Part shown: positions 374-18,958 of the stretch, piece by piece | Layout: each line of letters opens with the position of its first letter | Numbering within the stretch: position 1 is the stretch's first letter | NCBI RefSeq assembly: GCF_013359755.1 | Contig: NZ_JABMCJ010000078.1 | Coordinates: forward strand, 1-64,000 | Origin: Tardiphaga robiniae | GTDB lineage: Bacteria; Pseudomonadota; Alphaproteobacteria; Rhizobiales; Xanthobacteraceae | Reading direction: 5' to 3' | Length of the DNA stretch: 64,000 nucleotides | Made by a program: the position numbers and the translations under genes | The notes under the pieces: generated by a model | What the model was told of the DNA's origin: nothing | Seen by the model: only the letters and a program-made list of their open reading frames with translations | Databases searched by the model: none

Positions 374-1960
374 TCACCCCCGCGGCTTCGGCGTGAACGG
401 TCCCTTCGGCGCGTTGCCGATCAACGACACGACGATCAGCGCTGCCATCGCGAACCAGAAGGTGAGCCAGAAGCCGTCGATATAGGCCAGGGTATTGGCC
501 TCGCGCTGCACGAGACTTGCCAGCGTGCCGATGCCGCGCGCTTGTGCGAGACCCTCACCATGGCTGGCGAAACGCCCGGTGAGTTTGGCAAGAATGCCGA
601 CGACATCGGCATCGCCGCTGGCGACATGCTGGCCGAGCAGATTCGAATGGATCTGCTCGCGCACGCGCAGCCAGGTGCCCATCAGCGCGATGCCGATCTC
701 GGCACCGCCGAGTCGGAAGACCTGGATATAGGCCGCAAAGGCGGTGGCGCGCGACGGATCGGAATTCGACAGCGCGATGATCACGATGGGCAGCAGCGTG
801 AAGCTCTGCCCAAGCGACTGCAACATCACCATCGGGATGAAATCGCCAAGCGCCCATTCATGGGTGAGCTGCGTGCCCAGGAGGGCGGCGGCGGCGAATG
901 CCGCAAGGCCAATGATCAGCGTCAGCTTCACGTCGTAGTAGCGAATGAGCCAGATCGACAGCGGCACCAGCACGATCATCGGCACGACGGCATAGAGCAG
1001 AAACAACATGCCGGACTGCTCCGGCCGCAACAGCGCGATGTTGGTGAGAAAATTCGGCGCCAACGATGAATTGGACAGGCTGGTCATGGTGTAGAGAATG
1101 ATCGTCAGCAGCGCGAGACCGATATTGCGCGACAGCAGCACCTCGGCATGCGCCCATGGCCGTTTGACCACCGACTCATTGATGAAGAAGCCGACGGTCA
1201 GGACCGTGCCGCCGCCAAGCAGCGCCACCACCGTACCCGAACCCAGCCAGTCCAGCCGGTTGCCCTGATCGAGCCCCGCATAGATCATCGCCATGCCGGT
1301 GCCGAGCAAGAGCATGCCGCCCCAATCCGCCTCGCACAGCACGAAGCGGTTGATCGGCTCGCGCGGTGTGCCGAGCCAGACGAACAGCGCCAGCAGCGGC
1401 GCGATGATGACATCCTGCCAGAACATCCATTGCCAGCCGATGTGGCTGACATAGAAGCCGACCAGTGCAGTGCCGGAATTGAGCGAGAAGCCGACGCGAA
1501 TGGAATAGATCGCAATGGCCGGTAGCCACCACTTCATCGGCAGATTGCGAAAGATGATCAGCAGCGTTGCCGGCACGAAGGTGCCAAGCAGCATGCCGTG
1601 CACGATGTTCAGCACCAGCAGCAGATTGTAGTCGCGCACCAGCGGGATCACCAGCGAGATCGCCGCATAGACCAGGGCAGGAATGCCGAGCACGCGGCGC
1701 AGCCCGAACACGGTGGCCATCCAGGCCACCGCCGGCGCGATGAAGATCTGCGACGCGGTGCCGGCGGTGGAGAGCCACGCGCCTTCGTCGAAACTCAGCC
1801 CCAGCGCCCCGCGCAGATCGGCGAGACCGATGGAGAAGATTCGCGTATCGAAATTGGCCAGGAACGCGCCGAGCAGCACTGCCCCGACCGCAAAGATCGG
1901 ATGGTGCGAAACGCCCCCGGTCGAGACCGGGCCGCTTTCGATGACCTTACTTTCCGCCAT
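374..1960 (-). CDS. DHA2-family MFS multidrug transporter (EmrB/QacA type)
   Basis: A 528-residue protein with about 14 predicted membrane segments, the size and layout of DHA2 (14-TM) drug:proton antiporters. It starts at ATG 1960 and overlaps the end of the upstream HlyD-family gene by 14 bases, so the two are probably cotranscribed and translationally coupled. Together they would form an inner-membrane pump plus periplasmic adaptor of the EmrAB kind; an outer-membrane channel is not seen nearby. Substrate is unknown; the MarR gene upstream suggests induction by an aromatic or toxic compound handled by the adjacent catabolic genes. Family is clear, substrate is not. Confidence 0.9.
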   Translation of the reverse strand: MAESKVIESGPVSTGGVSHHPIFAVGAVLLGAFLANFDTRIFSIGLADLRGALGLSFDEGAWLSTAGTASQIFIAPAVAWMATVFGLRRVLGIPALVYAAISLVIPLVRDYNLLLVLNIVHGMLLGTFVPATLLIIFRNLPMKWWLPAIAIYSIRVGFSLNSGTALVGFYVSHIGWQWMFWQDVIIAPLLALFVWLGTPREPINRFVLCEADWGGMLLLGTGMAMIYAGLDQGNRLDWLGSGTVVALLGGGTVLTVGFFINESVVKRPWAHAEVLLSRNIGLALLTIILYTMTSLSNSSLAPNFLTNIALLRPEQSGMLFLLYAVVPMIVLVPLSIWLIRYYDVKLTLIIGLAAFAAAALLGTQLTHEWALGDFIPMVMLQSLGQSFTLLPIVIIALSNSDPSRATAFAAYIQVFRLGGAEIGIALMGTWLRVREQIHSNLLGQHVASGDADVVGILAKLTGRFASHGEGLAQARGIGTLASLVQREANTLAYIDGFWLTFWFAMAALIVVSLIGNAPKGPFTPKPRG

Positions 1961-3128
1961 TGCCGGCCGCCGGCGCGTCGGTGTTGATGCTGGCGGTTAC
2001 CGACATGCCCGGCAGCAACCGGTCGAGCAGCGGCTGCCCCTTGTCGAGCGTGATGCGGACCGGCACGCGCTGCACGACCTTGGTGAAATTGCCGGTGGCG
2101 TTATCCGGCGGCAGCAAGGCGAATTGCGATCCCGATGCCGGCGAGACGCGCTCGACACGGCCACGCAGGGTCTCCGCCGAGAACGTATCGACGACGATGT
2201 CGACGGGCTGGCCGGGCTTCACGCGGGTAAGCTGCGTTTCCTTGAAATTGGCGATCACATAGACGTCGGGCAGCGGCACGATGCTGATCAGGCTGGAGCC
2301 GATATTGACGTAGTCGCCCGGCTGCACCTGACGCTCGCTGACCACGCCATCGAATGGCGCGACGATCTTCGTATAACCGAGGCGTAGTCTGGCGGCATCG
2401 AGGGTCGCCTTGGCGCCGAGCAGATCGGCGGCGCGCTGCTTGCGCGTGCCGGCGAGCACTTCGAGCTGATGTTTCTGGGCGGCGATCACCGCGCCACTCG
2501 CCTTTACATCGGCCTGTGCCTTGGCATAGGCGGCGGTCGCCTGCTCGAAGCGCTGCCGCGTGCCGGCTTCGGTCTGCGTCAGCGAAGCCTGACGTTCCCG
2601 CTCCTGTTGCGCCTGCACTTCCATCGCCTGCGCCGACACGCGCTGCGCCTCGGCCTGCGCGATGGTGGCGTATTGCAGCTCGACCTGGTTGGCGAGATTG
2701 TCCAGCGCCGCCTGCGCACCGGCGACGCCGGCTTCGGCTTGCGCTACCTGCGCCTCGTAATCCGCGGGATCGATCTGGATCAGCAGATCGCCGGCTTTGA
2801 CGTGCTGGAAGTCGTTCACCGGCACGGCTTTCACGGCACCGGCCACGCGGCTCGACAGCCGCGTTGTCTGCGCGCGGATATAGGCATCGTTGGTGGTTTG
2901 CACCGCGCGGTTGCCCATCCAGATGTCCCAGCGGGTGGTGGCCAGAACGATGAAGACAACCGCGGCAGCAACGGCCAGCAGCGGAATCGCAAGACGACGC
3001 CACGCCTGCTGTGCTGGCGTCAACGCCGCAGGCTGTGCGGGCGGTTGCGCAGCCGGTTGTGCCGGTGTCGGCGCAACAGGTTGTGACGGCGCCGGTTGCG
3101 GCGTTGGGGATGCATCAAGCTGGGACAT
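1947..3128 (-). CDS. HlyD/EmrA-type periplasmic adaptor of an efflux pump
   Basis: A 393-residue membrane fusion protein. Residues 1-45 are a proline/alanine-rich cytoplasmic tail, 46-65 a single membrane anchor, followed by the lipoyl-like half, a long alpha-hairpin rich in Ala/Gln/Glu (about 130-250), the second lipoyl half and a beta-barrel domain (DVYVIANFKETQL is typical of EmrA proteins). It overlaps the MFS gene downstream and lies 127 bases below the MarR gene on the same strand. The proline-rich tail is longer than in E. coli EmrA. It should link the MFS pump to an outer-membrane factor. Confidence 0.9.
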   Translation of the reverse strand: MSQLDASPTPQPAPSQPVAPTPAQPAAQPPAQPAALTPAQQAWRRLAIPLLAVAAAVVFIVLATTRWDIWMGNRAVQTTNDAYIRAQTTRLSSRVAGAVKAVPVNDFQHVKAGDLLIQIDPADYEAQVAQAEAGVAGAQAALDNLANQVELQYATIAQAEAQRVSAQAMEVQAQQERERQASLTQTEAGTRQRFEQATAAYAKAQADVKASGAVIAAQKHQLEVLAGTRKQRAADLLGAKATLDAARLRLGYTKIVAPFDGVVSERQVQPGDYVNIGSSLISIVPLPDVYVIANFKETQLTRVKPGQPVDIVVDTFSAETLRGRVERVSPASGSQFALLPPDNATGNFTKVVQRVPVRITLDKGQPLLDRLLPGMSVTASINTDAPAAGNGGK

Positions 3129-3255: not shown

Positions 3256-4005
3256 TTATATCTTTTTGCGGCGTGCCGGTTTGTCGCCGCCATCAGATGG
3301 CGCCGGAGTATCCGGACCGCGCGGCTGCAGATAGCGTTGCAGCGCAATGGCGCGCTCGCTGGATTCGACGAGTCGCTCGACGCTCCCTAGCAATTGATGA
3401 AATTCGTCCGCGTTGAGACAATCGAACTGTACGTCATTGACCTGACGCTGCGTGGGATTGAGGCTTGCCAGCAGCGCATCGCCGGCCTGCGTCACCATGA
3501 GACGCAGGCGCCTGCGATCGGCGGGATCGACGAGCTTGTCGAGCAATCCCATCTGCTGCAGCTTGTTGGACACCGTGGTGACGAAAGCGCCGCTGAGATG
3601 CAGATGCGCCGCGAGTTCGCGCACGCTGACATCGCCTTCAGCGGCCAGATATTTGACCGAGATCAGCACAGTGTATTCGATCCCGGCCAGGCGGATCGCG
3701 GCGGCATGCCCCTCACGCACGGTCTCGTGACGCGCGAGGAACGCCAGCAATGTGTGCACGAGTTGCCGGAATGCATGATCGGAACCATCGACCAGCAGCG
3801 CCTTGCGCGACGTGGTCAGCGCCGGAGCCGGAAGTTTGGCCTTGAGCGCGGTTTTGGCTCCCGTCTTCACCGCGGGCTTTTCGGATTTACGCAGTGCCGT
3901 CGTCTTGGAGAGCGGCGTAACCTTGGAACGAGACATACCGCTTCCCAGTGAACGATCCGCGACAGGATTGGCTGGCGCCCCCTGCTTCGTCAAGCGATTC
4001 TGCAT
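3256..4005 (-). CDS. MarR-family transcriptional regulator, copy 1
   Basis: A 249-residue protein with a basic, Lys/Thr-rich N-terminal tail of about 70 residues and a MarR winged-helix domain at about 80-225. The recognition region reads HLHLSGAFVTTVSNKLQQMG and the wing holds DRRRLRLMVT. It is a close paralogue of the regulator at 7847-8518: the two share LLVDGSD, EGHAA, LAGIEYT, HLHLSGAFVTTV and RAIALQRYL. It is divergent from the DUF1185 gene, with a shared operator-like motif in the 74-base gap, and lies above the EmrAB-type genes. It probably represses one or both directions until a pathway ligand binds. Confidence 0.9.
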   Translation of the reverse strand: MQNRLTKQGAPANPVADRSLGSGMSRSKVTPLSKTTALRKSEKPAVKTGAKTALKAKLPAPALTTSRKALLVDGSDHAFRQLVHTLLAFLARHETVREGHAAAIRLAGIEYTVLISVKYLAAEGDVSVRELAAHLHLSGAFVTTVSNKLQQMGLLDKLVDPADRRRLRLMVTQAGDALLASLNPTQRQVNDVQFDCLNADEFHQLLGSVERLVESSERAIALQRYLQPRGPDTPAPSDGGDKPARRKKI

Positions 4006-4007
4006 AC

Positions 4008-4025
4008 CTTCTTAACGAAGCTATT
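4008..4025. promoter_or_regulatory. Putative MarR operator, site 1
   Basis: CTTCTTAACGAAGCTATT lies in the 74-base divergent gap between the first MarR gene and the DUF1185 gene. CTTC and GAAG form a dyad around five bases. The last ten bases (CGAAGCTATT) recur exactly at 7721-7730, and 14 of 18 bases match 8773-8790. Presence in three regulatory gaps of one cluster with two MarR paralogues makes it a good operator candidate. Confidence 0.55.
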
Positions 4026-4079
4026 GATCAAATGCATTTACTGGGTCAGGATCGGCGTCAAATCTGACGGGAGAACATC

Positions 4080-4661
4080 ATGAAACTCGATATCAGGCGC
4101 CTGCTCTGCTTCACCGACCACAAGGAGGTCGAGGCCGGCCACCGGCACGACCAACCGCTGCGCCGCGTCACCGCCGTGGCCATCGTCGCCAATCCCTATG
4201 CCGGACGCTATGTCGAGGACCTCTCCGAGGCAATTGCCGCCAGCGTCGAAGTCGGCGCCGTGCTGGCGAAGCTCGCCGTCGAGGCGATGGGATCGTACAA
4301 GGTGGAAAGCTACGGCAAGGGCGGCGTCGTTGGCCTCGGCGGCGAACTCGAACATGCCAATGCGATGCTGACCACGACTTTCGCCACGCCGCTGCGCGAG
4401 GCCGTCGGCGGCGCCGAAGCGTGGATCCCCTCTTTCACCAAGCTCGCTGCCCCCGGCTGCCTGATCGACGTTCCCCTGGCGCACAAGGACGCGCTCTATG
4501 TCCGCTCGCATTACGACGGCGTCTCGGTGACGCTGCCACCCGATGCGCCTGCCACTGATGAAGTTGCGCTGATCGTCTGCCTCGCCAATCGCGGGCGGCT
4601 CAATGCACGGGTCGGCGGGTTGAATGCGAGGGATATCGGCGGCAAGGACGGCTTGCGCTAG
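4080..4661 (+). CDS. DUF1185 (amino acid synthesis family) protein
   Basis: A 193-residue protein of the PF06684 family, recognised by the N-terminal MKLDIRRLLCFTD and the AIVANPYAG and KGGVVGLGGELEHANAM segments. The family is reported to have a chorismate-mutase-like fold and no proven reaction. The start has a strong GGGAG site a few bases upstream. It is followed 49 bases later by the enamidase-like gene and the two are surely one transcript. Context (flavin monooxygenase, cyclic-enamide hydrolase) suggests an isomerase, tautomerase or ligand-handling step in ring cleavage rather than amino acid synthesis; that is inference. Confidence 0.85.
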   Translation: MKLDIRRLLCFTDHKEVEAGHRHDQPLRRVTAVAIVANPYAGRYVEDLSEAIAASVEVGAVLAKLAVEAMGSYKVESYGKGGVVGLGGELEHANAMLTTTFATPLREAVGGAEAWIPSFTKLAAPGCLIDVPLAHKDALYVRSHYDGVSVTLPPDAPATDEVALIVCLANRGRLNARVGGLNARDIGGKDGLR

Positions 4662-4710
4662 GCTGCGGCTTTGTGCGGCCTTGGACGGCCTTGAAATTGC
4701 GGAGACGGGT

Positions 4711-5910
4711 ATGAAAACGGCCATCGTCAATATCGGCACCATCGTCACCGGTGATCTCAAGGCGCCGTTCACCGACGGCGACGGCATCCTGATGCAGGAC
4801 GGCCGCATCAGCGCGATCGGCACGCTGTCATCGGACCAGGTGTCATCGGCCGATGTGGTGATCGACGCCGCCGGCACCACGGCGATCCCCGGCCTGATCG
4901 ACAGCCACGTGCATATCACCTTCGGCGATTACACGCCGCGGCAGCGCGTGGTCGGTTATCTCGAAAGCTACGTGCATGGCGGCACGACGACGTCGATCAC
5001 GGCATCGGAAGTGCACGTCCCCGGACGCCCCAAGGATCCCGCCGGCGTGAAGGCACTGGCGCTGGCCGCCCGCGCCTGTTTCCTCGACTATCGCCCCGGC
5101 GGCATGCGCGTCCATGCCGGCTCGATCATCCTCGAGCCGGGACTGACAGAGGCCGATCTGGAAGAACTGGTGAAGGCCGGCTTGTGGCTTGCCAAGGCCG
5201 GCTTCGGCGCATTCGAGACACCATTCGACTATGCGCCCTTGATGCTCGCCGCACGCAAGCTCGGCATGGTCACCACCATGCATACCGGCGGCTCATCGAT
5301 CCCCGGCTCGTCCGGCATCTGGGCCGAACATGTGCTGAAATCGAATCCGAGCGTGTCGTTTCACGTCAATGGCGGACCGGTGGCGATGCCGGAAGCCGGC
5401 TTTGCGCGGCTGGTGAATGAAAGCGACATCGCGCTGCAGCTCTGCACCGCCGGCAATCTGCGCACCGCGCTGCTGACGGCGAAGCTGCTCGACGACGCCA
5501 AACAGCCGGAGCGGCTGCTGATCGCGACGGATACGCCGACCGGCAGCGGGATCATGCCGCTCGGCATGTTCTACACCATCAGCCATCTCGCCAGCCTAGG
5601 CCACATGCCGCCCGAACAGGCAATCGCGGCGGCGACGGGGAACAACGCAACGGTCTATCGGCTCAACAACGGATTTCTGAAGCCCGGCAAGGATGCCGAC
5701 GTGGTGCTGATCGACGCCTGTGCCGGCGGCTCGCAGGACAATGCGCTGTCGGCGCTTGTGAATGGCGACGTGCCGGCGGTGAGCGCCGTGATCACCGACG
5801 GCGTGCCGCGCTTTGTCGGCCGCAGCCGCAACACGCCAGCGGGTATGCGTAATGTGCGCGTGGCGGAAACGAGATTGCCGCGGGATTTCTCGGGCGCGGC
5901 GGCGCATTGA
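4711..5910 (+). CDS. Enamidase-like metal-dependent amidohydrolase
   Basis: A 399-residue amidohydrolase-superfamily enzyme. Metal ligands are visible: HVH at 66-68, His191 in MHTGG, His218 in FHVNGG and Asp274 in ATDTPTGSG. From memory the whole chain follows enamidase of Eubacterium barkeri (nicotinate fermentation), including GDYTPRQ, PGRPKD, GGSSIPGSS and SRNTP. Enamidase hydrolyses a cyclic enamide (tetrahydro-6-oxonicotinate) with release of ammonia. Here Lys162 sits where I recall the bridging Glu of enamidase, so a carboxylated lysine may bridge the metals. The ATG at 4711 has GGAG upstream. Likely reaction: hydrolysis of a cyclic enamide or lactam; the substrate is not known. Confidence 0.8.
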   Translation: MKTAIVNIGTIVTGDLKAPFTDGDGILMQDGRISAIGTLSSDQVSSADVVIDAAGTTAIPGLIDSHVHITFGDYTPRQRVVGYLESYVHGGTTTSITASEVHVPGRPKDPAGVKALALAARACFLDYRPGGMRVHAGSIILEPGLTEADLEELVKAGLWLAKAGFGAFETPFDYAPLMLAARKLGMVTTMHTGGSSIPGSSGIWAEHVLKSNPSVSFHVNGGPVAMPEAGFARLVNESDIALQLCTAGNLRTALLTAKLLDDAKQPERLLIATDTPTGSGIMPLGMFYTISHLASLGHMPPEQAIAAATGNNATVYRLNNGFLKPGKDADVVLIDACAGGSQDNALSALVNGDVPAVSAVITDGVPRFVGRSRNTPAGMRNVRVAETRLPRDFSGAAAH

Positions 5911-5945
5911 TCGGGATTGCAGAGAAGCAGCGGCACGCACGGTAG

Positions 5946-6132
5946 GCTCCCTCTCCCCGCATCTTGCACGGGGAGAGGGGTGGCGTGAGGGGCGAGGCAC
6001 AAGACCCGCCGCATTTGATCCCTCACACATCGGCACGAACTGCACATACCGCGCTTGCGTTGAACTCCGAGAATGGCCCCTCACCCGCCGCGAAGACGCG
6101 GCGACCTCTCCCCGCGCAGTGCGGGGAGAGGT
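5946..6132. repeat. Palindromic intergenic repeat, family C, copy 1
   Basis: The left end reads CTCCCTCTCCCCGC then CGGGGAGAGGGG, and the right end CCTCTCCCCGCGC then GCGGGGAGAGG, so each end is itself a hairpin. Copy 2 is at 16969-17160. It separates the convergent enamidase-like and HpaB-like genes and may serve both as terminator. Confidence 0.75.
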
Positions 6133-6150
6133 TAAGCAAACCGCGACGCC

Positions 6151-7659
6151 TTATTTCGCCCCACCGAACTCCGGCAGATCATACTTCGCCGTCATCTTCT
6201 CCGCCATGCCCGCCGCGCGCTCCCAGTCATAGGTGCGGTAGCTATGGCCGCGGGTGACAAACTGGGCGCCGGCATAGAACATCTCATATTGCAGATGGCG
6301 CGAGGCGAATTCGGAGCCGACCGCATCCCAGGTCAGCTTCAACAGCTTGACGCGGTCCTGGCCCGACATCGCCGGCGAGATCTGCGTCAGTCCGATAATG
6401 TCCGCGATTTCCGGATTGCTGAAATCATCCACCGAGGACGGCAGCATCAAGAGCGCACCACCGGCAAGTTCGCGGATGGCGCTGATGATCTGCGGATACA
6501 TCTCCTGCGACTGCACCTGCGCTGCATAGAGCAGATGCTTGTTGGGCAGATAGTAATCGCCGCGCATCGCGCCGCCGGCTTCCATGCCGAGCACCATGCC
6601 CTCGATCAGCGCCGCCTGCGAGGCGAGCTTGCCGAGCACATCCACCACGGGCGGGAAATTGATCGTGCCGATGGTCTTGGCGATGCCGCGCGCGAGGCCG
6701 ACCAGGAAGCGCAGCTTTACCGACAGGCGGATCTGCGCCTGATAGTTCTGATACACATGCGCCGGTGTGTCGTGGAGCTGGGCGCGGCACATGTCGGTGT
6801 TGCGGAGCAGGAACACGCGCTCCCACGGCACTTTCACGTCGTCGAAGAACACCAGCGCGTCGTTCTCGTCATAGCGATAGGCCAGCGGATTGTCATATTC
6901 GTTTGGCGCATGGGCCTCGAAGCTCTTGCGCGACAGCATCTTGAGGCCCCTGGTCCCCATCGGCAGCGCGCAGGAGAAGGCCAGATGCTCCTCGCCCGGC
7001 CGCAGCGGCTGGCCGGAGCCGACGAAGATCTCGTTGGCCATGATGGCTGACGTGGCGAACAGTTTGGCGCCGCGGATGGTGATGCCCGACGCATCCTCGT
7101 CGACGATGCGCGCCACCATGTCCTGCGCATTCTTGCCCTGATCGCCGAACGCCTTGGAGCGATCGCCCTGCACGTTGTTGATCACATAGGTCAGAAACAG
7201 GTCGCTCTTGCGGGCGTAGTCGTACCAGTCGCGGAACGCCTGCGCGCGTTTCGGATCGTAGTTATCGAACACCTCGATGCCCATCATCATGCCGGACATG
7301 GACGAGGCCACGTGATCGGGCGAGCGGCCGAGGAAGCCGCCGGACAGTTCGGCCCATTCCACCAGCGCCTTACGACGCTCGACCAGTTCCGCGTAGCTGG
7401 TCGGCAATTGCCAGGCGCGATTGACGCGGCGGCCACCACCGACATCGAAGGTCATGCGTTCGATATTGGCGGGGTCGGCCTGATAGTCATACAGCGCGCC
7501 AGCCGAGGCGACCGCATGGCGATAGGCCGGATGGGTCGAGACGTCATCGACCTTCTTGCCGTCGAGATAGACCGCACGACCGTCGCGCACAGCGGCGACA
7601 TGCTGGGCGCCAGTCTTGACGCCGGCAACTGCCGCCCCGGATCCAAATGCCTTGTTCAT
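6151..7659 (-). CDS. HpaB-family flavin-dependent monooxygenase (4-hydroxyphenylacetate 3-hydroxylase type)
   Basis: A 502-residue protein of the HpaB/PvcC family, which uses reduced FAD delivered by a separate reductase to hydroxylate phenols or pyrroles. Family marks are YDYQADPANIERMTF near the N-terminus, the RSPDH segment, a central acyl-CoA-dehydrogenase-like fold and the VKVPWERVFLL segment. The cysteine/histidine set of 4-hydroxybutyryl-CoA dehydratases is not evident, which favours an oxygenase. ATG 7659 has GGAG at the right distance; a GTG one codon upstream is less likely. It is divergent from the second MarR gene. No flavin reductase is seen in the window. Substrate is inferred only from context. 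Confidence 0.85.
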   Translation of the reverse strand: MNKAFGSGAAVAGVKTGAQHVAAVRDGRAVYLDGKKVDDVSTHPAYRHAVASAGALYDYQADPANIERMTFDVGGGRRVNRAWQLPTSYAELVERRKALVEWAELSGGFLGRSPDHVASSMSGMMMGIEVFDNYDPKRAQAFRDWYDYARKSDLFLTYVINNVQGDRSKAFGDQGKNAQDMVARIVDEDASGITIRGAKLFATSAIMANEIFVGSGQPLRPGEEHLAFSCALPMGTRGLKMLSRKSFEAHAPNEYDNPLAYRYDENDALVFFDDVKVPWERVFLLRNTDMCRAQLHDTPAHVYQNYQAQIRLSVKLRFLVGLARGIAKTIGTINFPPVVDVLGKLASQAALIEGMVLGMEAGGAMRGDYYLPNKHLLYAAQVQSQEMYPQIISAIRELAGGALLMLPSSVDDFSNPEIADIIGLTQISPAMSGQDRVKLLKLTWDAVGSEFASRHLQYEMFYAGAQFVTRGHSYRTYDWERAAGMAEKMTAKYDLPEFGGAK

Positions 7660-7707
7660 CACTTTTCTCCGTCACCTGCTGCCGGCCGCGTGCCGGTCAT
7701 CACTATT

Positions 7708-7730
7708 AATAGCTATCATCCGAAGCTATT
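7708..7730. promoter_or_regulatory. Putative MarR operator, site 2 (perfect inverted repeat)
   Basis: AATAGCT at 7708-7714 and AGCTATT at 7724-7730 form a perfect 7-bp inverted repeat with a 9-base spacer. It lies in the divergent gap between the monooxygenase and the second MarR gene. The right half with its flank, CGAAGCTATT, is identical to part of site 1 at 4016-4025. Confidence 0.6.
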
Positions 7731-7846
7731 TTGAAACCGTTGTCAAGCGGACCTGTGGCATTCGGGGTCGTGCGTCATTTGTCGTGATTGCAATTGCGCT
7801 GCGAAGCCGCCAAGCTCTGGCAAGTTTTGATACATGGGATCATCAC

Positions 7847-8518
7847 GTGGCCAAATCCGCAGCGCGCTCCACTTCGATCGGCAAATCAGTTGGCAAGGAG
7901 ATCAGCAAGAAGCCTGCCACAGGCCGGCCGGCGTCCCGCGCTGCATTGACGGTCTCCCGTCCGGAGCTGCTGGTGGACGGTTCGGACGCCCAGTTCCGCC
8001 GCCTCGTCCACAGCCTGTTCGGCTTTCTGGTCCGCCACCAGACCTTGCGCGAAGGCCACGCCGCCGTCATCGGCCTCGCCGGCATCGAATACACGACCCT
8101 GATTTCGATCCGGCATCTGTCGGCGCAAGGCGACGTCCATGTGCGCGCCGTCGCCGATCACCTGCATCTGAGCGGCGCCTTCGTCACCACCGTGACCAAC
8201 AAGCTCGAAACCAAAGGGCTGATCACCAAGACCTCGCACACCGGCGACCGCCGCCGCATCAGCCTCGTGGTGACACCGCATGGCGCCGAATTGCTGGAGC
8301 GGCTCGCGCCGACTCAGGCCCAGGTGAACGACGTGCAGTTCGGTTGCCTCGGCACCCGGGAATTCCACCAGTTGCTGCACATGGTGCAGCGGCTCGTCGA
8401 TTCCAGCGACCGCGCCATTGCGTTACAGCGTTATCTGGCCGACACCAATGTGAAGCAGCTCTCGCCCGAGGCCCAATCGATCGCCGTCGCCAAGCGCGGC
8501 AAGCCGCGCAAGAGCTGA
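7847..8518 (+). CDS. MarR-family transcriptional regulator, copy 2
   Basis: A 223-residue paralogue of the regulator at 3256-4005, with a basic tail followed by a MarR domain (LAGIEYTTLISIRHL, HLHLSGAFVTTVTNKLE, DRRRISLVVT). The reading frame stays open far upstream, to 7616 inside the monooxygenase gene, but the only sensible start before the basic tail is GTG 7847, preceded by a weak GGGA; a longer protein would overlap the operator and the divergent gene. The ends of the two paralogues differ while the ligand and DNA-binding core is well kept, suggesting related DNA sites and perhaps different effectors. Confidence 0.85.
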   Translation: MAKSAARSTSIGKSVGKEISKKPATGRPASRAALTVSRPELLVDGSDAQFRRLVHSLFGFLVRHQTLREGHAAVIGLAGIEYTTLISIRHLSAQGDVHVRAVADHLHLSGAFVTTVTNKLETKGLITKTSHTGDRRRISLVVTPHGAELLERLAPTQAQVNDVQFGCLGTREFHQLLHMVQRLVDSSDRAIALQRYLADTNVKQLSPEAQSIAVAKRGKPRKS

Positions 8519-8621
8519 ATCTGGCCTGCAATCCGACCCGCGTCAGGACCGGCGGTTGCACCCGGCCAAGGCGCCGGGGATAGCCACTGCCCGCGCCGCC
8601 ATTGCTGCGACAAAACGGCAC

Positions 8622-8640
8622 CGGGGGAGCGCAGCCCCCG
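8622..8640 (+). terminator. Hairpin after the second MarR gene
   Basis: CGGGGG at 8622-8627 pairs with CCCCCG at 8635-8640 around a 7-base loop, 104 bases after the stop codon. There is no T run, so it would be a weak or Rho-assisted terminator. Confidence 0.35.
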
Positions 8641-8772
8641 CCCGCCCAAGGGCGACGCGGGAATCAGCCGCGACGCGCCCGCAACACCAAACACCCGTGA
8701 AACAGGCAATTGCGCGCATTCCCGCCAGCTTCGAATTGCTGCATTTCCGGGCCGCACTGCCGCATAAATTAG

Positions 8773-8790
8773 CTTCTTAAGAGAACTATT
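8773..8790. promoter_or_regulatory. Putative MarR operator, site 3
   Basis: CTTCTTAAGAGAACTATT shares 14 of 18 positions with site 1 at 4008-4025 and contains the 8-base palindrome TCTTAAGA. It lies about 180 bases before the importer binding-protein gene, which would place the transporter under the same regulators as the catabolic genes. Confidence 0.5.
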
Positions 8791-8966
8791 TTATAAAGAT
8801 ACTCAGAATGACGATTGTCAAAGCCTGAAATTTATTGGACGATCCAACCAACGCTGTCATTCCGCTGTCACAGCTGGCGATGGCACATGGCGTGCATAGA
8901 AATCTTTATCTGGATTATGCTGCGGATCACTGCAGCAAAAGCATCAGCAGAAGAGGACGATCGTCG

Positions 8967-10193
8967 ATGTCACGGATCAAATCGAATTTGCCGCGCGTAT
9001 TGGGCACAGTTGCCGCCGTCACGCTCTCCGCCATGGTTGGCGGTCAGGCATGGGCGCAGGAAATCGCCATCGGCGCGGTGGTGCCGAGCTCCGGTCCATT
9101 CGCCGAGTGGGGCCGCAGCAACACCGTGACGCTGAAGATGCTGGAACAGCAGACCAACGATGCCGGCGGCATCAATGGCGCGAAGCTGAAGATCACCATT
9201 CTCGACGACGCCGCCAAGCCGGCGCAGGCCGCAAGCTCGCTGCGCAAACTGGCCGGCGACGAGAAGGTTCTTGCCGTGGCCGGCCCGCTGACCTCAAGCG
9301 CCGCCGAAGTGACCTTCCCCGTCGCCAATGAAATGAAGGTGGTCTCCACCTCGCAAGCCTCCTCGAAGCCGGGCGTGGCGAAGCTCAATCGTCCGTGGGC
9401 TTTCCGCAACACCATCGACGAAGGCGTGCTCGCCAAGACCACCGTGCCTTTCTACAAGAAGGCCTTCAACATCAAGACAGTCGCCGTGATCTTCGACGCC
9501 AAGGACGCCACGGCTTCCACCGTCGGCAAGGTGATCATGCCGGCCGTGCTGAAGGCCAATGACATCACCGTCGCCAACGAGAACGATCTGCTGTCGTTCA
9601 ACACCGGCGACCTCGACGTCTCCGCACAGGTCACCAAGCTGAAGGCCCTGAATCCCGACGGCGTCGTTGTCAGCGCCGATTACAGCCAGGCCATCACCGT
9701 GCTGCGCGAAATGAAGCGCCAGGGTCTGATCAAGCCGGTCGTCGGCGCCACCCAGTTGATCTCTTCGGCGATTCTCAAGGCTGCGCCGGAAATCCCGGTG
9801 ATCGCGCCCGCAACCTTCTACGCCACCATGACAGGCCCGGCACCCGAGAAATTCACGGCCACCCTGACGCCGCTGCTCCGCAAGGAATCGGGCCTGCCAA
9901 AGGACATCGAGCCCTCGATGTATGACGCCAACATCTACGAGATCGTCTCGATGTATATCGACGCGATCAAGAAGACTGGCGTCACCGGCAAGCCGGCCGA
10001 TCTTGAAGCCGACCGCACCAAGATCCGCGATCACCTTGCCAAGCTCGAAGGCTTCGCCGGTCTCGGCGGCCCGATCGGCTTCAATGACGACGGCGACGCG
10101 ATCAAGGCCTTCTACGTGCTGCAGGGCCAGAACGGCGCCTGGGACACCAAGGTCAAGGGCTGCAGCTCGGCGCCCGGCCACCCGGCCTGCTGA
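8967..10193 (+). CDS. Periplasmic binding protein of a branched-chain-amino-acid-type ABC importer
   Basis: A 408-residue type I periplasmic binding protein (LivJ-like, Peripla_BP_6). Residues 1-30 are a signal peptide ending in a QAWAQ cleavage region. The mature start, EIAIGAVVPSSGPFAEWG, is typical of the family. ATG 8967 with AGAGGA upstream is preferred over an in-frame ATG at 8835. Two cysteines lie at the very C-terminus (CSSAPGHPAC). It leads an operon with LivHMGF. Family members bind amino acids, amides, or aromatic acids; given the neighbours, the ligand may be the N-heterocyclic or aromatic substrate of the catabolic genes. Confidence 0.9.
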   Translation: MSRIKSNLPRVLGTVAAVTLSAMVGGQAWAQEIAIGAVVPSSGPFAEWGRSNTVTLKMLEQQTNDAGGINGAKLKITILDDAAKPAQAASSLRKLAGDEKVLAVAGPLTSSAAEVTFPVANEMKVVSTSQASSKPGVAKLNRPWAFRNTIDEGVLAKTTVPFYKKAFNIKTVAVIFDAKDATASTVGKVIMPAVLKANDITVANENDLLSFNTGDLDVSAQVTKLKALNPDGVVVSADYSQAITVLREMKRQGLIKPVVGATQLISSAILKAAPEIPVIAPATFYATMTGPAPEKFTATLTPLLRKESGLPKDIEPSMYDANIYEIVSMYIDAIKKTGVTGKPADLEADRTKIRDHLAKLEGFAGLGGPIGFNDDGDAIKAFYVLQGQNGAWDTKVKGCSSAPGHPAC

Positions 10194-10282: not shown

Positions 10283-11161
10283 ATGCTGATACAGCAACTC
10301 GTCAACGGCCTGACGCTCGGAGCGGTCTATACGCTGCTGGCGCTGTCGTTCTCGCTCGTGATGGGCATTCTCGGCATTCTCAATCTCGCGATTGCCGAAC
10401 TCTTCATGATCGGCGGCTATCTCGGCTTCACGCTGATCACCGCAGGCTTCCCGCTTCCGGTCGCCGTGCTGGGCGGCATGCTCGGCGCAGCCGTGATCGC
10501 CATCGCCATCGAGAAGATCGGCTACCAGCCGCTGCGCGACGCGCCCCTGGTGACGCCGATGCTGTCGACGCTGGGTTTCTCGATCATCCTGCAGAACGTC
10601 GCCACCAACATCTGGGGCTCGGATCCTGCCCAGCTCCCCGACGAGTATTTCGGCAAGCAATATGCGTTCGGCCCGGTCAATATCGGCGAGATGCAGCTCA
10701 TCGTGCTCGTCGCCACCGTCGTGCTGGTCGCGCTGGTTGCCTATATCGTGCAGAAGACTCCGATGGGCCGCGCGCTGCGCGCCGTCGCCGAGAACCGCGA
10801 AGTCGCAAGAATCCTGGGCGTCTCCGCTGACCGCCTGACCATGCTGGCCTTCATCCTGTCGGGCTCGCTCGCCGGCGTCGCCGGCGTGTTGATCGCGCTG
10901 CATTACGGCACCATCACGCCCTATCTCGGCGTCGAGATCGGCCTCAAAGCCATCGCCGTGATGGTGATCGGCGGCACGCGCCAGATCTGGGGCGCGCTGG
11001 TCGCGGGTCCACTGATCGGCATCGCCGAAGTGCTGACCGTCGCTTACGGCGGCTCGCAGGTGCGCGACTTCGTCGTTTACGGCTTCATGATTTTGATTTT
11101 GTTGCTGCGTCCGCAGGGCCTGCTCGGCGGCGCGCGATCCGATCAGGGGCAGCGCGTCTGA
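10283..11161 (+). CDS. livH: LIV-type ABC importer permease LivH
   Basis: A 292-residue inner-membrane permease of the LivH family with about eight membrane segments. The opening MLIQQLVNGLTLGAVYTLLA and the later AGVAGVLIALHYG segment are characteristic. The stop overlaps the start of the next permease (TGATG at 11159-11163), so the two are translationally coupled. It should pair with LivM to form the channel for the solute delivered by the binding protein at 8967. Confidence 0.93.
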   Translation: MLIQQLVNGLTLGAVYTLLALSFSLVMGILGILNLAIAELFMIGGYLGFTLITAGFPLPVAVLGGMLGAAVIAIAIEKIGYQPLRDAPLVTPMLSTLGFSIILQNVATNIWGSDPAQLPDEYFGKQYAFGPVNIGEMQLIVLVATVVLVALVAYIVQKTPMGRALRAVAENREVARILGVSADRLTMLAFILSGSLAGVAGVLIALHYGTITPYLGVEIGLKAIAVMVIGGTRQIWGALVAGPLIGIAEVLTVAYGGSQVRDFVVYGFMILILLLRPQGLLGGARSDQGQRV

Positions 11162-11997
11162 TGTCGACCTATTACGCAAGCCTGCTCGCCGAGTCCGGCA
11201 TCCTTCTGCTGGGCGCACTCAGCGTCTATATCATCCTCGCCACCGGCCAACTCTCGCTCGGCAATGGCGCCTTCATGGGAATCGGCGCTTACCTGTCGTC
11301 CTACCTCACCGTCGCGCTGAACGTACCGCTGACGCTTGCACTTGTGATCTCGGCCATCGCCGCCGGCATCATCGGCGCCATCGTCGCCTTCCCCGCGCTG
11401 CGCCTCAAAGGCATCTATCTCGCCATGGCCACCGTCGGCTTCGGCGAAATGGTGCGCAGCTTCTTCCTCAATTTCGACGCCATGGGCGGCTCCGGCGGCT
11501 ATCGCGGCATGCAGCACATCTCGGTCGGCTATGTCTGGCTGTGGGCCGGCGGCATCCTGATCGCCGTGATGCTGCTGGAGCGCTCGCGCGTCTGGCTGGA
11601 AATGCAGGCGGTGCATGACGACGAGACCGCCGCGGGCCTGATCGGCCTCAACACCACCGTGACCAAGATCGGCGCCTTCGGTGTCGGCGCCGCCGTCGCC
11701 GCCATCTCCGGCGGATTGTTCGCGCATCACAATGTCTATATCGAGCCGGCCAATTTCGGCTTCGATCGCTCGATCGAATTCGTGCTGGCCGTGATCCTCG
11801 GCGGCTCCACCGTCGGACCGGGCTCGCTGGTCGGCTCTCTCCTTTTGGTGTTCCTCCCCGAATTCCTGCGTCCGATCGCCGACTGGCGCCTCGCCGCCTT
11901 CGGCACGCTGCTGATCGTCGTGCTGCTGGTACGGCGTCAGGGCATTCTCGATCGTTCGCTGATCCGAACGCTCACCTTCCGGAGGGCTGCGGCATGA
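11161..11997 (+). CDS. livM: LIV-type ABC importer permease LivM
   Basis: A 278-residue permease of the LivM family, short for the family (often 310-400 residues) because the N-terminal extension is absent. The IYLAMATVGFGEMVR segment and the GGSTVGPGSLVG loop are typical. It overlaps livH by one base and livG by four (ATGA at 11994-11997). Partner of LivH in the membrane. Confidence 0.93.
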   Translation: MSTYYASLLAESGILLLGALSVYIILATGQLSLGNGAFMGIGAYLSSYLTVALNVPLTLALVISAIAAGIIGAIVAFPALRLKGIYLAMATVGFGEMVRSFFLNFDAMGGSGGYRGMQHISVGYVWLWAGGILIAVMLLERSRVWLEMQAVHDDETAAGLIGLNTTVTKIGAFGVGAAVAAISGGLFAHHNVYIEPANFGFDRSIEFVLAVILGGSTVGPGSLVGSLLLVFLPEFLRPIADWRLAAFGTLLIVVLLVRRQGILDRSLIRTLTFRRAAA

Positions 11998-12746
11998 GCA
12001 ATGCGCTGCTTCAACTCACCGGCGTCACCAAGACGTTCGGCGGCATCCATGCGCTGTCCGGCATGGTCTGCGAAGTGCCGGAAGGCAAGATCGTCGGCGT
12101 GATCGGCCCGAACGGCGCCGGCAAGACGACGCTGTTCAACACGATCACCGGCGCCTATCGCGCCGATGCCGGCGAAGTGAAACTCAAGGGCGTCGATGTC
12201 ACGCAGTGGCCGTCCTATCGCATCGTGCGCGAGGGCATTGCGCGCACGTTCCAGAACATCCGTCTGTTCGGCAGCATGACGGTCTGGGAACATCTGCTGG
12301 TGGCGCAGCCGCATAGCGAAAGCGCGTGGCGGCGTCTGCTGCCGATCGCCTGGGCCAATCCGGCGGCGCAGGAACGCGCCGAGGAAGTGATGGCGTTCTT
12401 CGGCCTCACCGAACTGCGCGACCGCCCAGCGAAATCCCTGCCCTACGGCATCCAGCGCAAGGTGGAGATGGCGCGCGCCGTCACCGCCAGGCCGAAGCTG
12501 CTGCTGCTGGATGAACCCGTCGCCGGCATGAACCACGACGAGGCCGAGGAAATCCGCGCGCTGATGATCCGCTTGCGCGACACCGGCCTCACCATTCTCC
12601 TGATCGAACACGACATGAATTTCGTGATGCGGCTCTGCGACTATCTCTATGTGCTCGATTTCGGCGTGCTGATCGCCGAAGGCAGACCGGAAGAAGTGCG
12701 CGCCAATCCCGTCGTCCTCGACGCCTATCTCGGAAAGGACTCGTGA
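11994..12746 (+). CDS. livG: LIV-type ABC importer ATPase LivG
   Basis: A 250-residue ATP-binding subunit. The Walker A motif GPNGAGKTT is at 38-46, the switch region reads IEHDMNFVM, and the Walker B region is LLLLDEPVAGMN. The signature loop is divergent: KSLPYGIQRKVEMARA stands where LSGGQ usually lies, as often seen in LivG proteins. Coupled to livM by a 4-base overlap and to livF by TGATG. Confidence 0.93.
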   Translation: MSNALLQLTGVTKTFGGIHALSGMVCEVPEGKIVGVIGPNGAGKTTLFNTITGAYRADAGEVKLKGVDVTQWPSYRIVREGIARTFQNIRLFGSMTVWEHLLVAQPHSESAWRRLLPIAWANPAAQERAEEVMAFFGLTELRDRPAKSLPYGIQRKVEMARAVTARPKLLLLDEPVAGMNHDEAEEIRALMIRLRDTGLTILLIEHDMNFVMRLCDYLYVLDFGVLIAEGRPEEVRANPVVLDAYLGKDS

Positions 12747-13453
12747 TGCTCACCATCCGGGGCTTGCAGGTCCGCTACGGCGCCATCACCGCCGTGCGCG
12801 GCGTCGATCTCGACATCAAGCAGGGTGAGATCGTGGCTTTGCTCGGCGCAAACGGCGCCGGCAAGAGCACCATCGCGCGCGCCATCGCCGGGCTTCTCCC
12901 GTTCCAGGGCGATATCACCTATCAGGGCGAGAAACTCGCGCAGAATGCGGCCGAAAAGAATCTCCGCCGCGGCATCGCGCTGGTGCCGGAAGGCCGCGGC
13001 ATTCTCGCGCGCATGACGGTCTATGAAAATCTGCTGATGGGCATCTACACCCGCCCGGACAAGGCCGAGGCGATGGCCGATGTCGGCCGGATGCTCGAGC
13101 GCTTCCCGATCCTCGGCAAGCGCCGCGACGGTCTCGCTAGTCTGTTGTCGGGCGGCGAACAGCAGATGCTGGCGATCGGGCGTGCACTGCTGTCGAAGCC
13201 GAAGCTGCTGCTGCTCGACGAGCCCTCGCTCGGCCTCGCGCCTCTGATGACCGCGAGCCTGTTCAGCATGATCGCGCAATTCCGCGATGAAGGCCTGACG
13301 GTGTTGCTGGTGGAGCAGAAGGCACGCCAGACGCTGAAGATCGTGGACCGGGCCTATCTGCTTGAGACCGGCCGCGTGGTGACATCAGGTTCGGCGGAAG
13401 CGCTGATCAACGATCCGACATTGTCGGAAGCGTTTCTGGGTGGGGCGCACTGA
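12746..13453 (+). CDS. livF: LIV-type ABC importer ATPase LivF
   Basis: A 235-residue ATP-binding subunit. Walker A GANGAGKST is at 34-42, the signature is LSGGEQQML, Walker B is LLLLDEPSLGLAP, and RGIALVPEGRGIL is typical of LivF. ATG 12746 is preferred because AGGA lies at the right distance; a GTG one codon earlier is possible. It closes the importer operon. Confidence 0.92.
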   Translation: MLTIRGLQVRYGAITAVRGVDLDIKQGEIVALLGANGAGKSTIARAIAGLLPFQGDITYQGEKLAQNAAEKNLRRGIALVPEGRGILARMTVYENLLMGIYTRPDKAEAMADVGRMLERFPILGKRRDGLASLLSGGEQQMLAIGRALLSKPKLLLLDEPSLGLAPLMTASLFSMIAQFRDEGLTVLLVEQKARQTLKIVDRAYLLETGRVVTSGSAEALINDPTLSEAFLGGAH

Positions 13454-13607: not shown

Positions 13608-14723
13608 CTACGCCCCATACCGCGCCAGCACCGGCCAGGTCTCCACGCCATTATTATGCCCGACCACCTGATAGCTCGCATGCAAATTCACCGTGGGATC
13701 GCAATGCGTCGTCAGCAGCAACACGCGACTGCCGAGCTTCGGCGCCTCGGCCCCCGCCGGCATCGTGATCATGCCGTGCTCATCACCGCCGAAGCGATAG
13801 GTTGAACCTTCCGGGGCGCCGATCATCAGCGACGGCACCGGCCCATTGAAGGCCATCGCCTTGACGCCGGCATCCACGGTGAATTCGCCGGCACGATTCA
13901 CCGAGGTGACCGTGGCGAGAATGAACAGACTTGGATCGTAAGGCAGCGCGCCACCCTCGTGCTCCAACTTGCCGTAGTCAGAATCCATGAACACGTAGGA
14001 ACCGACCTGCAGCTCCGTATAGGTGCCCGTGACATCATAGGCGCAGGCGCCCGTGCCACTGCCGGTGACGATCTCCGCCTTGATGCCGGCTTCCGTCAGT
14101 ACATGCAGATGCTCGTCGAGCATCGCGCGCACGCGCGCAGCACCTGCCCTGCGCTCCTGCGAGTCGATCATGTGCTGCACATGACCGGCGAAACCCTGGA
14201 TGCCACTGAAATTCATGCCCGGCGTGGCTTCGATCAGTTGCGCGAGCGCGAGCGTCGATGCGGTATCGACCACACCGGTACGGCGCTGACCGACATCGAT
14301 ATCGATCAGCACCTGCAGCTGACGGCTGCCGGCATCGAGCAATTCATGCAGCACGTGAATCTGGTCGGCGTGATCGACGACGATGCTGATATCGGATTGG
14401 TCGGCGACAGCGGCCAGACGCGCGAGCTTCGGTCGGTCGGCGACAGGTGTCGTCAGCAGCAGCCCTGTGATGCCAGCCTGCGCAAAGGCCTCGATCTCGG
14501 CGACCGTCGCGCAGGAAATGCCGACAGCGCCAGCCTCGATCTGCATCTGCGCGATACGCGTCGATTTGTGAGTCTTGGCATGTGGGCGAAGCGCAACGCC
14601 GTTCGCTTTGGCGAACTCGGCCATGGCCGTGATGTTGCGCTGAAGAGCAGACGCATCCAGCACCAGCGCAGGCGTCTGGATATCCGCAAAAGCTGGCAGA
14701 TTGGGATCGAGCATCTTTGGCAT
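13608..14723 (-). CDS. DSD1/D-threonine-aldolase-like PLP enzyme
   Basis: A 371-residue fold-type III (alanine-racemase-like) PLP enzyme. The PLP lysine is Lys50 in RPHAKTHKS. The C-terminal THCDPTVNLH carries the His and Cys that bind the metal in D-serine dehydratase, D-threonine aldolase and 3-hydroxy-D-aspartate aldolase. The start is ATG 14723, overlapping the hydantoinase stop as TGATG; a GTG one codon earlier is possible. Following a hydantoinase and a D-carbamoylase, it may break down a beta-hydroxy D-amino acid freed by that pathway, giving glycine plus aldehyde, or pyruvate plus ammonia. Exact substrate unknown. Confidence 0.85.
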   Translation of the reverse strand: MPKMLDPNLPAFADIQTPALVLDASALQRNITAMAEFAKANGVALRPHAKTHKSTRIAQMQIEAGAVGISCATVAEIEAFAQAGITGLLLTTPVADRPKLARLAAVADQSDISIVVDHADQIHVLHELLDAGSRQLQVLIDIDVGQRRTGVVDTASTLALAQLIEATPGMNFSGIQGFAGHVQHMIDSQERRAGAARVRAMLDEHLHVLTEAGIKAEIVTGSGTGACAYDVTGTYTELQVGSYVFMDSDYGKLEHEGGALPYDPSLFILATVTSVNRAGEFTVDAGVKAMAFNGPVPSLMIGAPEGSTYRFGGDEHGMITMPAGAEAPKLGSRVLLLTTHCDPTVNLHASYQVVGHNNGVETWPVLARYGA

Positions 14724-16189: not shown

Positions 16190-16288
16190 GGGCAGAACTC
16201 CAGGGATGAGATCAGATATGCGAACATTTTACAGGCTTTGACGGTCGGCACTTTCCGGTAATACTGCTGTCCTGACAAGGAGCCGAAT

Positions 16289-16948
16289 ATGCAGCCCCGC
16301 AAGAAGATTCTGGTGGTCAATCCGAACAGCAACCCGCAGGTGACGCGCAACCTCGCGGAGGCGTTGCAACCGGTGATGTTCGAGGCCGGGCCCGAGATCG
16401 AATGCGTCACGCTGGCGGAAGGACCATTGGGCGTGCAGACGCAGGCCGATCTCGAAAGCGTCACCATACCGCTGAGCCGGCTGGTGGCCGCCGACAATTC
16501 GGCCGATGCCTTCGTCATCGCCTGCTATTCCGATCCCGGCCTGCACGTTTGCCGCGAGGCGACGCAGCGTCCGGTATTCGGGATCGCCGAATCCGGCGTG
16601 CTGACGGCACTGTCGCGCGGCGACCGCTTCGGCGTCATCGCGGTGGCGCAGGGCTCGATCGGCCGGCACATGCGTTATCTGCGCCAGATGTGCCTGATGG
16701 ATCGCTTCGCCGGCGAACGTCCGCTCAACATGAGTGTGGCGGAAGCGGCTTCAGGCGACGACACGCTGGCGCGCATGATCAAGGTCGGCCGCCAGTTGAA
16801 GGACGAGGACGGCGCCAACGCCGTGGTGATGGGCTGCGCCGGCATGTCGCGTCATCGCAGCGCGCTCGAGGATGCGCTCGGCATTCCGGTGATCGATCCG
16901 ACCCAGGCTGCGGTGAGCATGGCCATCGGCACGGTGATGTTTCAGTAA
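16289..16948 (+). CDS. Hydantoin racemase (Asp/Glu racemase family)
   Basis: A 219-residue protein of the Asp/Glu/hydantoin racemase family. It opens with VVNPNSNPQVT, typical of hydantoin racemases. The two catalytic cysteines are Cys79 in ACYSDPG and Cys183 in MGCAGMS. An AAGGAG site precedes ATG 16289. It would interconvert L- and D-5-substituted hydantoins so that the D-specific carbamoylase can use all the substrate. It stands alone on the plus strand between minus-strand partners. An allantoin racemase role is an alternative. Confidence 0.85.
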   Translation: MQPRKKILVVNPNSNPQVTRNLAEALQPVMFEAGPEIECVTLAEGPLGVQTQADLESVTIPLSRLVAADNSADAFVIACYSDPGLHVCREATQRPVFGIAESGVLTALSRGDRFGVIAVAQGSIGRHMRYLRQMCLMDRFAGERPLNMSVAEAASGDDTLARMIKVGRQLKDEDGANAVVMGCAGMSRHRSALEDALGIPVIDPTQAAVSMAIGTVMFQ

Positions 16949-16968
16949 GTTTGAGCTCCGGCAGTGAG

Positions 16969-17160
16969 CTCCCTCTCCCCGCTCTTGCGCGGGGAGAGGG
17001 GTGGGGTGAGGGGCGTGGCACGAACCTCGGCCGAAACTCGGCAGCAATGCACTGCTCAGTGAGCGACACGAGAATCCGACATTAACGCGACTGCGGTGAA
17101 CCGCCCCTCACCCGCCGCGAAGACGCGGCGACCTCTCCCCGCGCAAAGCGGGGAGAGGTT
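16969..17160. repeat. Palindromic intergenic repeat, family C, copy 2
   Basis: It matches the repeat at 5946-6132: CTCCCTCTCCCCGC and GCGGGGAGAGGGG at the left, CCTCTCCCCGCGC and GCGGGGAGAGG at the right, with a shared inner CACCCGCCGCGAAGACGCGG. It separates the convergent racemase and carbamoylase genes. Confidence 0.75.
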
Positions 17161-17195
17161 AGGTCAGTGCTTCTCGTCGATTTAAGAGCGTCGCC

Positions 17196-18878: not shown

Positions 18879-18904
18879 CGCCTGCCCAACGCCGAACTCC
18901 CTGA

Positions 18905-18928: not shown

Positions 18929-18958
18929 CTTCTCCCGGTAACTTCTGCGAGACATCCC

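Follow-up and report, generated by a model that had tools for sequence, protein, structure and literature searches.

We analysed a stretch of 64,000 nucleotides from Tardiphaga robiniae (assembly GCF_013359755.1, contig NZ_JABMCJ010000078.1, positions 1 to 64,000 of the forward strand; hereafter the window) and concentrated on positions 3256 to 10193, which carry a gene cluster that probably serves the breakdown of an N-heteroaromatic compound. At its centre lies a single operon on the plus strand, consisting of a gene for a DUF1185 protein (PF06684, AA_synth; 4080 to 4661; Pfam E-value 4.9e-63, PDB entries 2QTP with 2.8e-49 and 3BYQ with 2.4e-26) and a gene for an amidohydrolase of the enamidase family (Amidohydro_1; E-value 1.5e-101 against enamidase, PDB 2VUN). 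The latter is a proposed lactam hydrolase with a proposed start at 4711 in an open reading frame (ORF) spanning 4624 to 5910. Divergent from this pair, the regulator gene marR1 (3256 to 4005, minus strand; Pfam MarR/MarR_2; start codon uncertain) is followed by the genes of an EmrAB-like exporter (HlyD and MFS proteins). On the other side, also on the minus strand, lies the gene for HpaB1, a two-component flavin monooxygenase of the HpaB family (6151 to 7662; PF11794, HpaB_N, E-value 1.2e-81; PF03241, HpaB, 3.9e-54). Divergent from HpaB1 are a second regulator gene, marR2 (7786 to 8518, plus strand; Pfam MarR; start uncertain, the full ORF of 7616 to 8518 overrunning an operator), and a five-gene Liv-type importer, headed by its solute-binding protein (8835 to 10193, plus strand; Peripla_BP_6, E-value 3.5e-47; start uncertain). 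An earlier note on this DNA had named the oxygenase, the enamidase-like hydrolase, DUF1185, the two MarR regulators and the importer, and Pfam together with the 2VUN match bears out this gene set.

The palindrome TAGCTTC-N5-GAAGCTA (19 bp) occupies all three promoter gaps of the cluster, so that the shared operator-like sites of the earlier note are real. It lies between marR1 and DUF1185 (4005 to 4023; TACCTTC-N5-GAAGCTA, 13 of 14 bases, kept in relatives), between HpaB1 and marR2 (7710 to 7728; 12 of 14) and ahead of the importer operon (8770 to 8788; 11 of 14). The site at 8770 is the weakest: when that gap was shuffled 2000 times, its score was reached 20 times. The window contains four matches at up to 3 mismatches (the fourth lies at 44935), where 1.03 are expected, and none of 100 shuffles reached four; as the consensus was derived from these same sites, such statistics are flattered, and the conservation of the operator in relatives is the better argument. 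The palindrome is kept in Tardiphaga and Bradyrhizobium and also precedes the HpaC-HpaB2 genes and a UbiD decarboxylase gene. Searched genome-wide at 3 mismatches, the operator is uninformative (122 sites, compared to 379 for the reversed control); only seven sites have 2 or fewer mismatches, three of them in this regulon.

No flavin reductase gene adjoins HpaB1 at the window locus. A candidate source is the HpaC encoded at a satellite locus on another contig of the same genome (L168), where a third MarR gene, the flavin reductase gene, a second oxygenase gene (HpaB2, 58% identical to HpaB1) and a cupin gene are found, with the palindrome TAGCTTTGTTATAAAGCTA between the MarR and the flavin reductase genes. 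The genome holds eight flavin-reductase matches, and the shared operator connects this one with the pathway at the level of regulation, which falls short of proof. In four Bradyrhizobium loci (L008, L010-L012) reductase, HpaB2 and cupin genes adjoin those for DUF1185, the hydrolase and HpaB1. Each of these loci has five palindrome sites (two sites, in L011 and L012, score as intragenic since the gene caller starts the gene early), and one of the five stands 20-122 bp upstream of the UbiD gene, at 6033 in L008, 5405 in L010, 5421 in L011 and 5406 in L012. A UbiD match was not found in the window's own genome. The satellite cupin resembles many small cupins (TM1459, acetylacetone dioxygenase, KdgF), which is not decisive for its function.

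The pairing of DUF1185 with the hydrolase is conserved. Among the 80 loci ranking best of 309 by similarity to the window DUF1185 (L003-L082), the hydrolase was present in 62, in 61 of them within 3 kb, and an HpaB (more than 300 bits) in 27, all 27 of which also have the hydrolase, although these counts are biased by the choice of loci for DUF1185 similarity. The trio whose recurrence the earlier note had wanted checked thus does recur in other genomes. The three nearest loci, two from Tardiphaga and one from Bradyrhizobium, encode DUF1185 proteins 98-99% identical to that of the window. In 240 alphaproteobacterial genomes, a sample chosen independently of DUF1185 similarity, the hydrolase family (E-value up to 1e-40) occurs in 19 genomes with 22 genes and DUF1185 in 50 (49 above the Pfam cut-off). 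DUF1185 lies within 10 kb of 16 of the 22 hydrolase genes and within 4 kb of 14, the chance of such proximity per gene being estimated at about 0.7% for an assumed genome size. Six of these hydrolase genes are of the window type (at least 53% identity), and DUF1185 adjoins four of them.

Two settings of the pair can be distinguished. In one, which is the reductive nicotinate route, an enamidase-family gene is accompanied by two DUF1185 genes in tandem, UPF0280, a molybdenum hydroxylase and a gene annotated as 6-hydroxynicotinate reductase (L186, L187, L188 and, similarly, several of L135-L149). The eight members of the 6-hydroxynicotinate reductase cluster all fall in L135-L149, and none in the window's first 20 kb. 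The crystallised DUF1185 protein SPO0826 is probably of this type, judging by its sequence and Liv neighbours. In the other setting activation falls to an oxygenase or hydroxylase, which varies while the DUF1185-hydrolase pair stays. Besides HpaB, the partner can be a FAD monooxygenase (Burkholderiales, Agrobacterium vitis, Mariluticola; that of L049 is nearest to PnpA, PDB 6AIN, and HspB, 7DA9), a molybdenum hydroxylase (Mesorhizobium, marine Rhodospirillales) or a Rieske dioxygenase (Thermomicrobium, L147 and Rhodococcus, the Rhodococcus stretch having no annotated DUF1185).

The DUF1185 protein itself is a clear family member (212 bits against a Pfam cut-off of 27). Its predicted model (pLDDT 88; TM-score 0.89 to 3BYQ) matched only the two DUF1185 structures below an E-value of 0.001 in a fold search, and no enzyme outside the family, so that the fold does not settle its reaction. 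It may be a tautomerase, an enamine-handling enzyme or a helper protein. The last of these, a non-catalytic chaperone, metal-site or regulatory subunit of enamidase-family and other C-N hydrolases, seems possible to us though somewhat doubtful. It would agree with the tight gene pairing, with the tandem copies in nicotinate loci and with the pairing with HyuA/HyuB in L060 and L069. Enamidase was reportedly crystallised alone (2VUN), DUF1185 is missing within 10 kb of six of the 22 hydrolase genes, and the charged residues invariant in 16 aligned DUF1185 sequences, K80, E89, H92 and R142, would fit a binding site equally well; these points speak against a helper. In its favour, the literature describes highly conserved residues at the DUF1185 hexamer interface (PMC2954203) and, second hand, a stimulation of another enzyme by TgnF of the trigonelline pathway (PMC7913881).

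The proposal of an amino-acid role for PF06684 was founded on a fold resembling chorismate mutase and on neighbouring genes for branched-chain amino-acid transporters (PMC2954203). A Liv-type transporter also lies beside the present catabolic cluster, and the family name is therefore probably misleading for these members. The role outside amino acid synthesis that the earlier note had envisaged is not new: in a 2021 paper HcdD of 7-hydroxycoumarin degradation is treated as a DUF1185 protein and TgnF is called its homologue, so that DUF1185 in catabolic clusters is already published (PMC7913881). In the open-licence literature DUF1185 turned up in three papers, namely the structure paper, the one on 7-hydroxycoumarin and one about a different family that mentions it twice, and PF06684 in two of the three.

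The window hydrolase aligns with enamidase over residues 2-383 of 399 at 42.8% identity, which places it in the family named by the earlier note. It keeps H67, H69, H193, H220 and D276, which we take to be the five metal ligands of enamidase; His69, His193, His220 and Asp276 are invariant in the alignment with 2VUN. Position 164, presumably that of the bridging residue, differs: 2VUN and all 10 proteins of nicotinate loci have Glu there, as opposed to Lys in the window protein and in all 64 window-type proteins (a set with one duplicate, L036 and L148 being the same place). In a tree including named plasmid relatives (FastTree, midpoint-rooted) this position is occupied by 71 Lys, 17 Glu and 1 Phe, the 71 Lys sequences forming one clade with a support of 0.995. 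Amidohydrolases usually have Lys as their bridging ligand, so that the Lys-type proteins are likely to possess a hydrolytic site with two metals. We do not call the window protein an enamidase because both a defining residue, Glu164, and the genetic setting differ.

Alternatively it might be that the amidohydrolase is a ring-cleaving dioxygenase, with HpaB making a vicinal diol. A precedent is KpiC, which has the amidohydrolase fold, uses O2 to open 3,4-dihydroxypyridine, giving a product 32 Da heavier than the substrate, and has enamidase, at 28%, as its sole experimentally confirmed near relative (PMC7356986). The ligand His67 is replaced by Gln in 28 of the 64 window-type hydrolases; 4 of these 28 share their locus with an HpaB, compared to 24 of the 36 with His, and two loci (L066, L147) carry lower genes of a meta pathway. 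The window protein itself retains His67 along with the four other ligands and has Lys at the bridging position. It shares 43% identity with the hydrolytic enamidase, and its relatives occupy the place of an amidase in sister clusters described below; these points make a dioxygenase unlikely here. The Gln67 proteins, among them those of L041, L049, L058, L059, L061, L062, L068, L070, L071, L078, L082 and L147, possibly have a changed reaction.

Escherichia coli HpaB holds its phenol by Arg113, Tyr117 and His155. This trio is altered to Arg/His/Tyr in HpaB1, in 35 of 35 members of its subfamily (not counting the later HpaBs L207-L225) and in 6 of 6 plasmid relatives examined. The two other HpaBs of the genome differ from the HpaB1 subfamily, and one of them (L170, 28% identical) adjoins an intradiol dioxygenase and an alcohol dehydrogenase of the iron type, read here as a maleylacetate reductase, which makes this a phenol setting. 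The neighbourhoods differ as well: an amidase, HyuA/HyuB or enamidase-family gene lies within 8 kb of 8 of 10 close HpaBs (from 13 places at least 54% identical, three fragments being left out). For distant HpaBs, taken from 11 of the remaining 24 places together with the two from the window's own genome, the figure is 3 of 13. The weight of this contrast is lessened because the query proteins came from close-group loci or their plasmid relatives, which flatters it somewhat.

The same HpaB subfamily occurs in sister clusters of the order HpaC-HpaB-cupin-amidase-DUF2848, with intervening genes in some, in Caballeronia, Cupriavidus, Paracoccus, Roseateles and Thioclava (L179, L180, L191, L193, L194). 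The annotated L179, L180 and L191 resemble the window further in having MarR and Liv genes, and differ in the amidase, which stands instead of DUF1185 and the hydrolase; in the Burkholderia cluster L181 an amidase was not found within 9 kb. Three loci (L034, L054, L057) retain the cupin and DUF2848, have DUF1185 and the hydrolase and show no amidase within 9 kb. The strongest indication that HpaB produces an amide and that the hydrolase cleaves it is the presence of the pair where the sisters have an amidase. For DUF2848 we found no mention in the open-licence literature. HyuA/HyuB pairs adjoin DUF1185 or HpaB genes in L060, L069, L207, L210 and L212.

That HpaB1 might simply turn a phenol into a catechol or hydroxyquinol, with the other genes serving a nitrogen-bearing side chain or being passengers, would suit the 13 of 15 PDB sequences matched by HpaB1 that are named as phenol-acting enzymes, as well as HpaC, UbiD and EmrAB-type export, which are usual in phenolic pathways, but it is rendered improbable by the altered trio, by the separate L170 HpaB in its phenol setting, by the C-N hydrolases near most close HpaBs and by the lack of a known ring-cleaving dioxygenase among the nine window proteins scanned with Pfam.

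The conserved pair, the Lys clade, the altered HpaB residues and the C-N hydrolase neighbours are best read together as a catabolic regulon under MarR control, by which an N-heteroaromatic ring is first oxygenated and then opened by hydrolysis. We give this explanation as a whole a probability of roughly 0.6. In the chemistry that we infer, the Liv transporter would import the compound and HpaB1 would hydroxylate the ring next to the nitrogen, using reduced flavin from the HpaC encoded beside HpaB2 and the cupin. The product would tautomerise to a cyclic enamide or lactam, to which the Lys-type hydrolase would add water, opening the ring, and a loss of ammonia would lead to an oxo acid. DUF1185 would most likely handle a tautomer or enamine that is either required or formed by the hydrolase. 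The end product would be 2-oxoglutarate in the case of pyrrole-2-carboxylate, or a C5 semialdehyde or oxo acid in the case of a pyridine.

Several observations weigh against this reading. Within the 240 genomes, an HpaB (E-value 1e-60 or better) stands beside only 2 of the 6 window-type hydrolase genes, so that the trio on which the earlier note had built, while its oxygenation and hydrolytic opening are supported, is a minority arrangement there; the six hydrolase genes far from any DUF1185 belong here, too. Conversely, 18 of the 80 DUF1185 loci lack the hydrolase. In two of these HyuA/HyuB adjoins DUF1185 (L060, L069) and in L015 an M20 hydrolase is present; the M20 hydrolase of L020 is assigned by cluster membership only. 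No enamidase-family gene or comparable hydrolase was recognised by eye in eight actinobacterial DUF1185 loci. Within 8 kb of the close HpaBs of L168 and L209 a C-N hydrolase gene is missing, and two of the fragments outside the ten, L213 and L214, show none in view. The acetaldehyde dehydrogenase and hydroxy-oxovalerate aldolase of L066 and L147 are unpredicted if the substrate is a pyrrole. A characterised close relative was not found. Finally, HcdD serves a coumarin pathway without ring nitrogen, and the authors of that work were unable to demonstrate any effect of the protein (PMC7913881).

By-eye inspection of the actinobacterial loci, from Streptomyces and Nonomuraea (L073-L077, L079-L081), showed amine oxidase, aldehyde dehydrogenase, benzoylformate-decarboxylase-like, VOC or FAD monooxygenase genes.

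The substrate of the regulon is probably carboxylated, and pyrrole and pyridine carboxylates are the candidates. Pyrrole-2-carboxylate is plausible, the ring itself not being fixed by any sequence evidence. For a pyrrole, the Bradyrhizobium UbiD under the operator is suggestive, its nearest PDB entries being 6H6V (4.4e-91), which we take to be 2,5-furandicarboxylate decarboxylase, and AnInD (7P9Q, 6.6e-61); HyuA/HyuB, of the hydantoinase/oxoprolinase family, would fit a dehydro-pyroglutamate. UbiD is full or near-full length in seven further listed stretches besides Bradyrhizobium and L208, and partial in more, but these proteins are only 27-31% identical to the Bradyrhizobium one and therefore force no single decarboxylase reading. 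A pyridine is suggested by what accompanies relatives, namely molybdenum hydroxylases, the HspB-like enzyme and a 2,6-dihydroxypseudooxynicotine-hydrolase-like protein (L082, 1.3e-28; the L078 protein is 77% identical to it). The aldolase and acetaldehyde dehydrogenase of L066 and L147 point to a C5 or C6 dienoate, and the substrates may well differ between members. As further substrates, 2,3,6-trihydroxypyridine, imidazole-acetate and homarine were set aside for lack of evidence.

Among known systems, the reductive nicotinate pathway of Eubacterium barkeri (enamidase, EC 3.5.2.18, 2VUN) shares with the window an enamidase-family hydrolase acting on a cyclic enamide, and the annotated nicotinate clusters of alphaproteobacteria and Comamonadaceae, with DUF1185 twice and 6-hydroxynicotinate reductase, share DUF1185. 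The window differs in lacking the reductase, in the probable activation of the ring by an oxygenase, and in the bridging Lys instead of Glu of its own clade. The pyrrole-2-carboxylate monooxygenase of Rhodococcus and Arthrobacter reportedly is an HpaB-like oxygenase acting on the pyrrole acid in a route that ends in 2-oxoglutarate; we liken it to HpaB1 by its described activity, not by sequence. In the trigonelline (tgn) system of Acinetobacter baylyi the ring is said to be cut directly by an oxygenase, and to our knowledge no enamidase-family enzyme belongs to the cluster. The likeness in that case is the DUF1185-type protein in an N-heteroaromatic pathway (TgnF, via PMC7913881). The 4-hydroxypyridine pathway of Arthrobacter IN13 (KpiA, KpiC, KpiB) likewise has a flavin monooxygenase followed by an amidohydrolase-fold ring opener. 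It differs in the addition of O2 by KpiC, whose likeness to enamidase is no more than 28%, and in KpiA, which falls under FAD_binding_3, not HpaB; the part of its gene table available lists no DUF1185 (PMC7356986). Among the matches listed from the open-licence literature there was no description of the present cluster, and nothing there joined 6-hydroxynicotinate reductase with enamidase.

More generally, and tentatively, DUF1185 and the Lys-type hydrolase could form a portable module that opens oxygen-activated N-heteroaromatic rings by hydrolysis and that different bacteria use with HpaB, PnpA/HspB-like, Rieske or molybdenum enzymes; DUF1185 would then be a dearomatising tautomerase, or an enamine-handling enzyme, that enables hydrolysis in this cluster as well as in reductive nicotinate degradation. 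These results place DUF1185 in a context that can be tested, delimit a clade of enamidase-family hydrolases whose metal site is altered and yield a set of enzymes for assay, including the unlinked reductase. If true, hydrolytic opening after hydroxylation would explain the use of N-heteroaromatic carbon without a ring-cleaving dioxygenase.

The remaining genes of the cluster lie at its edges. The exporter genes span 374 to 3128 on the minus strand and comprise an HlyD/EmrA-like adaptor (1947 to 3128; Pfam HlyD; TIGR00998, E-value 3e-76) and, downstream of it and of marR1, a DHA2/EmrB-like MFS protein (374 to 1960; Pfam MFS_1; efflux_EmrB), the NCBIfam matches of both being under the curated cut-offs. 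The importer continues on the plus strand with LivH, LivM, LivG and LivF (10283 to 13453), which were outside the Pfam scan and are assigned as ORFs clustering with Liv genes of relatives. Next to the importer, positions 13608-19001 hold a D-threonine-aldolase-like gene, a hydantoinase-like Amidohydro_1 protein, a hydantoin-racemase-family gene and a carbon-nitrogen hydrolase, genes that read as a second cyclic-amide catabolic block. A second DUF1185 gene of the same genome (L171, 8849-9430) apparently belongs to a different pathway; it adjoins a gene of the fumarylacetoacetate hydrolase family, and a Bug-type binding protein is encoded nearby.

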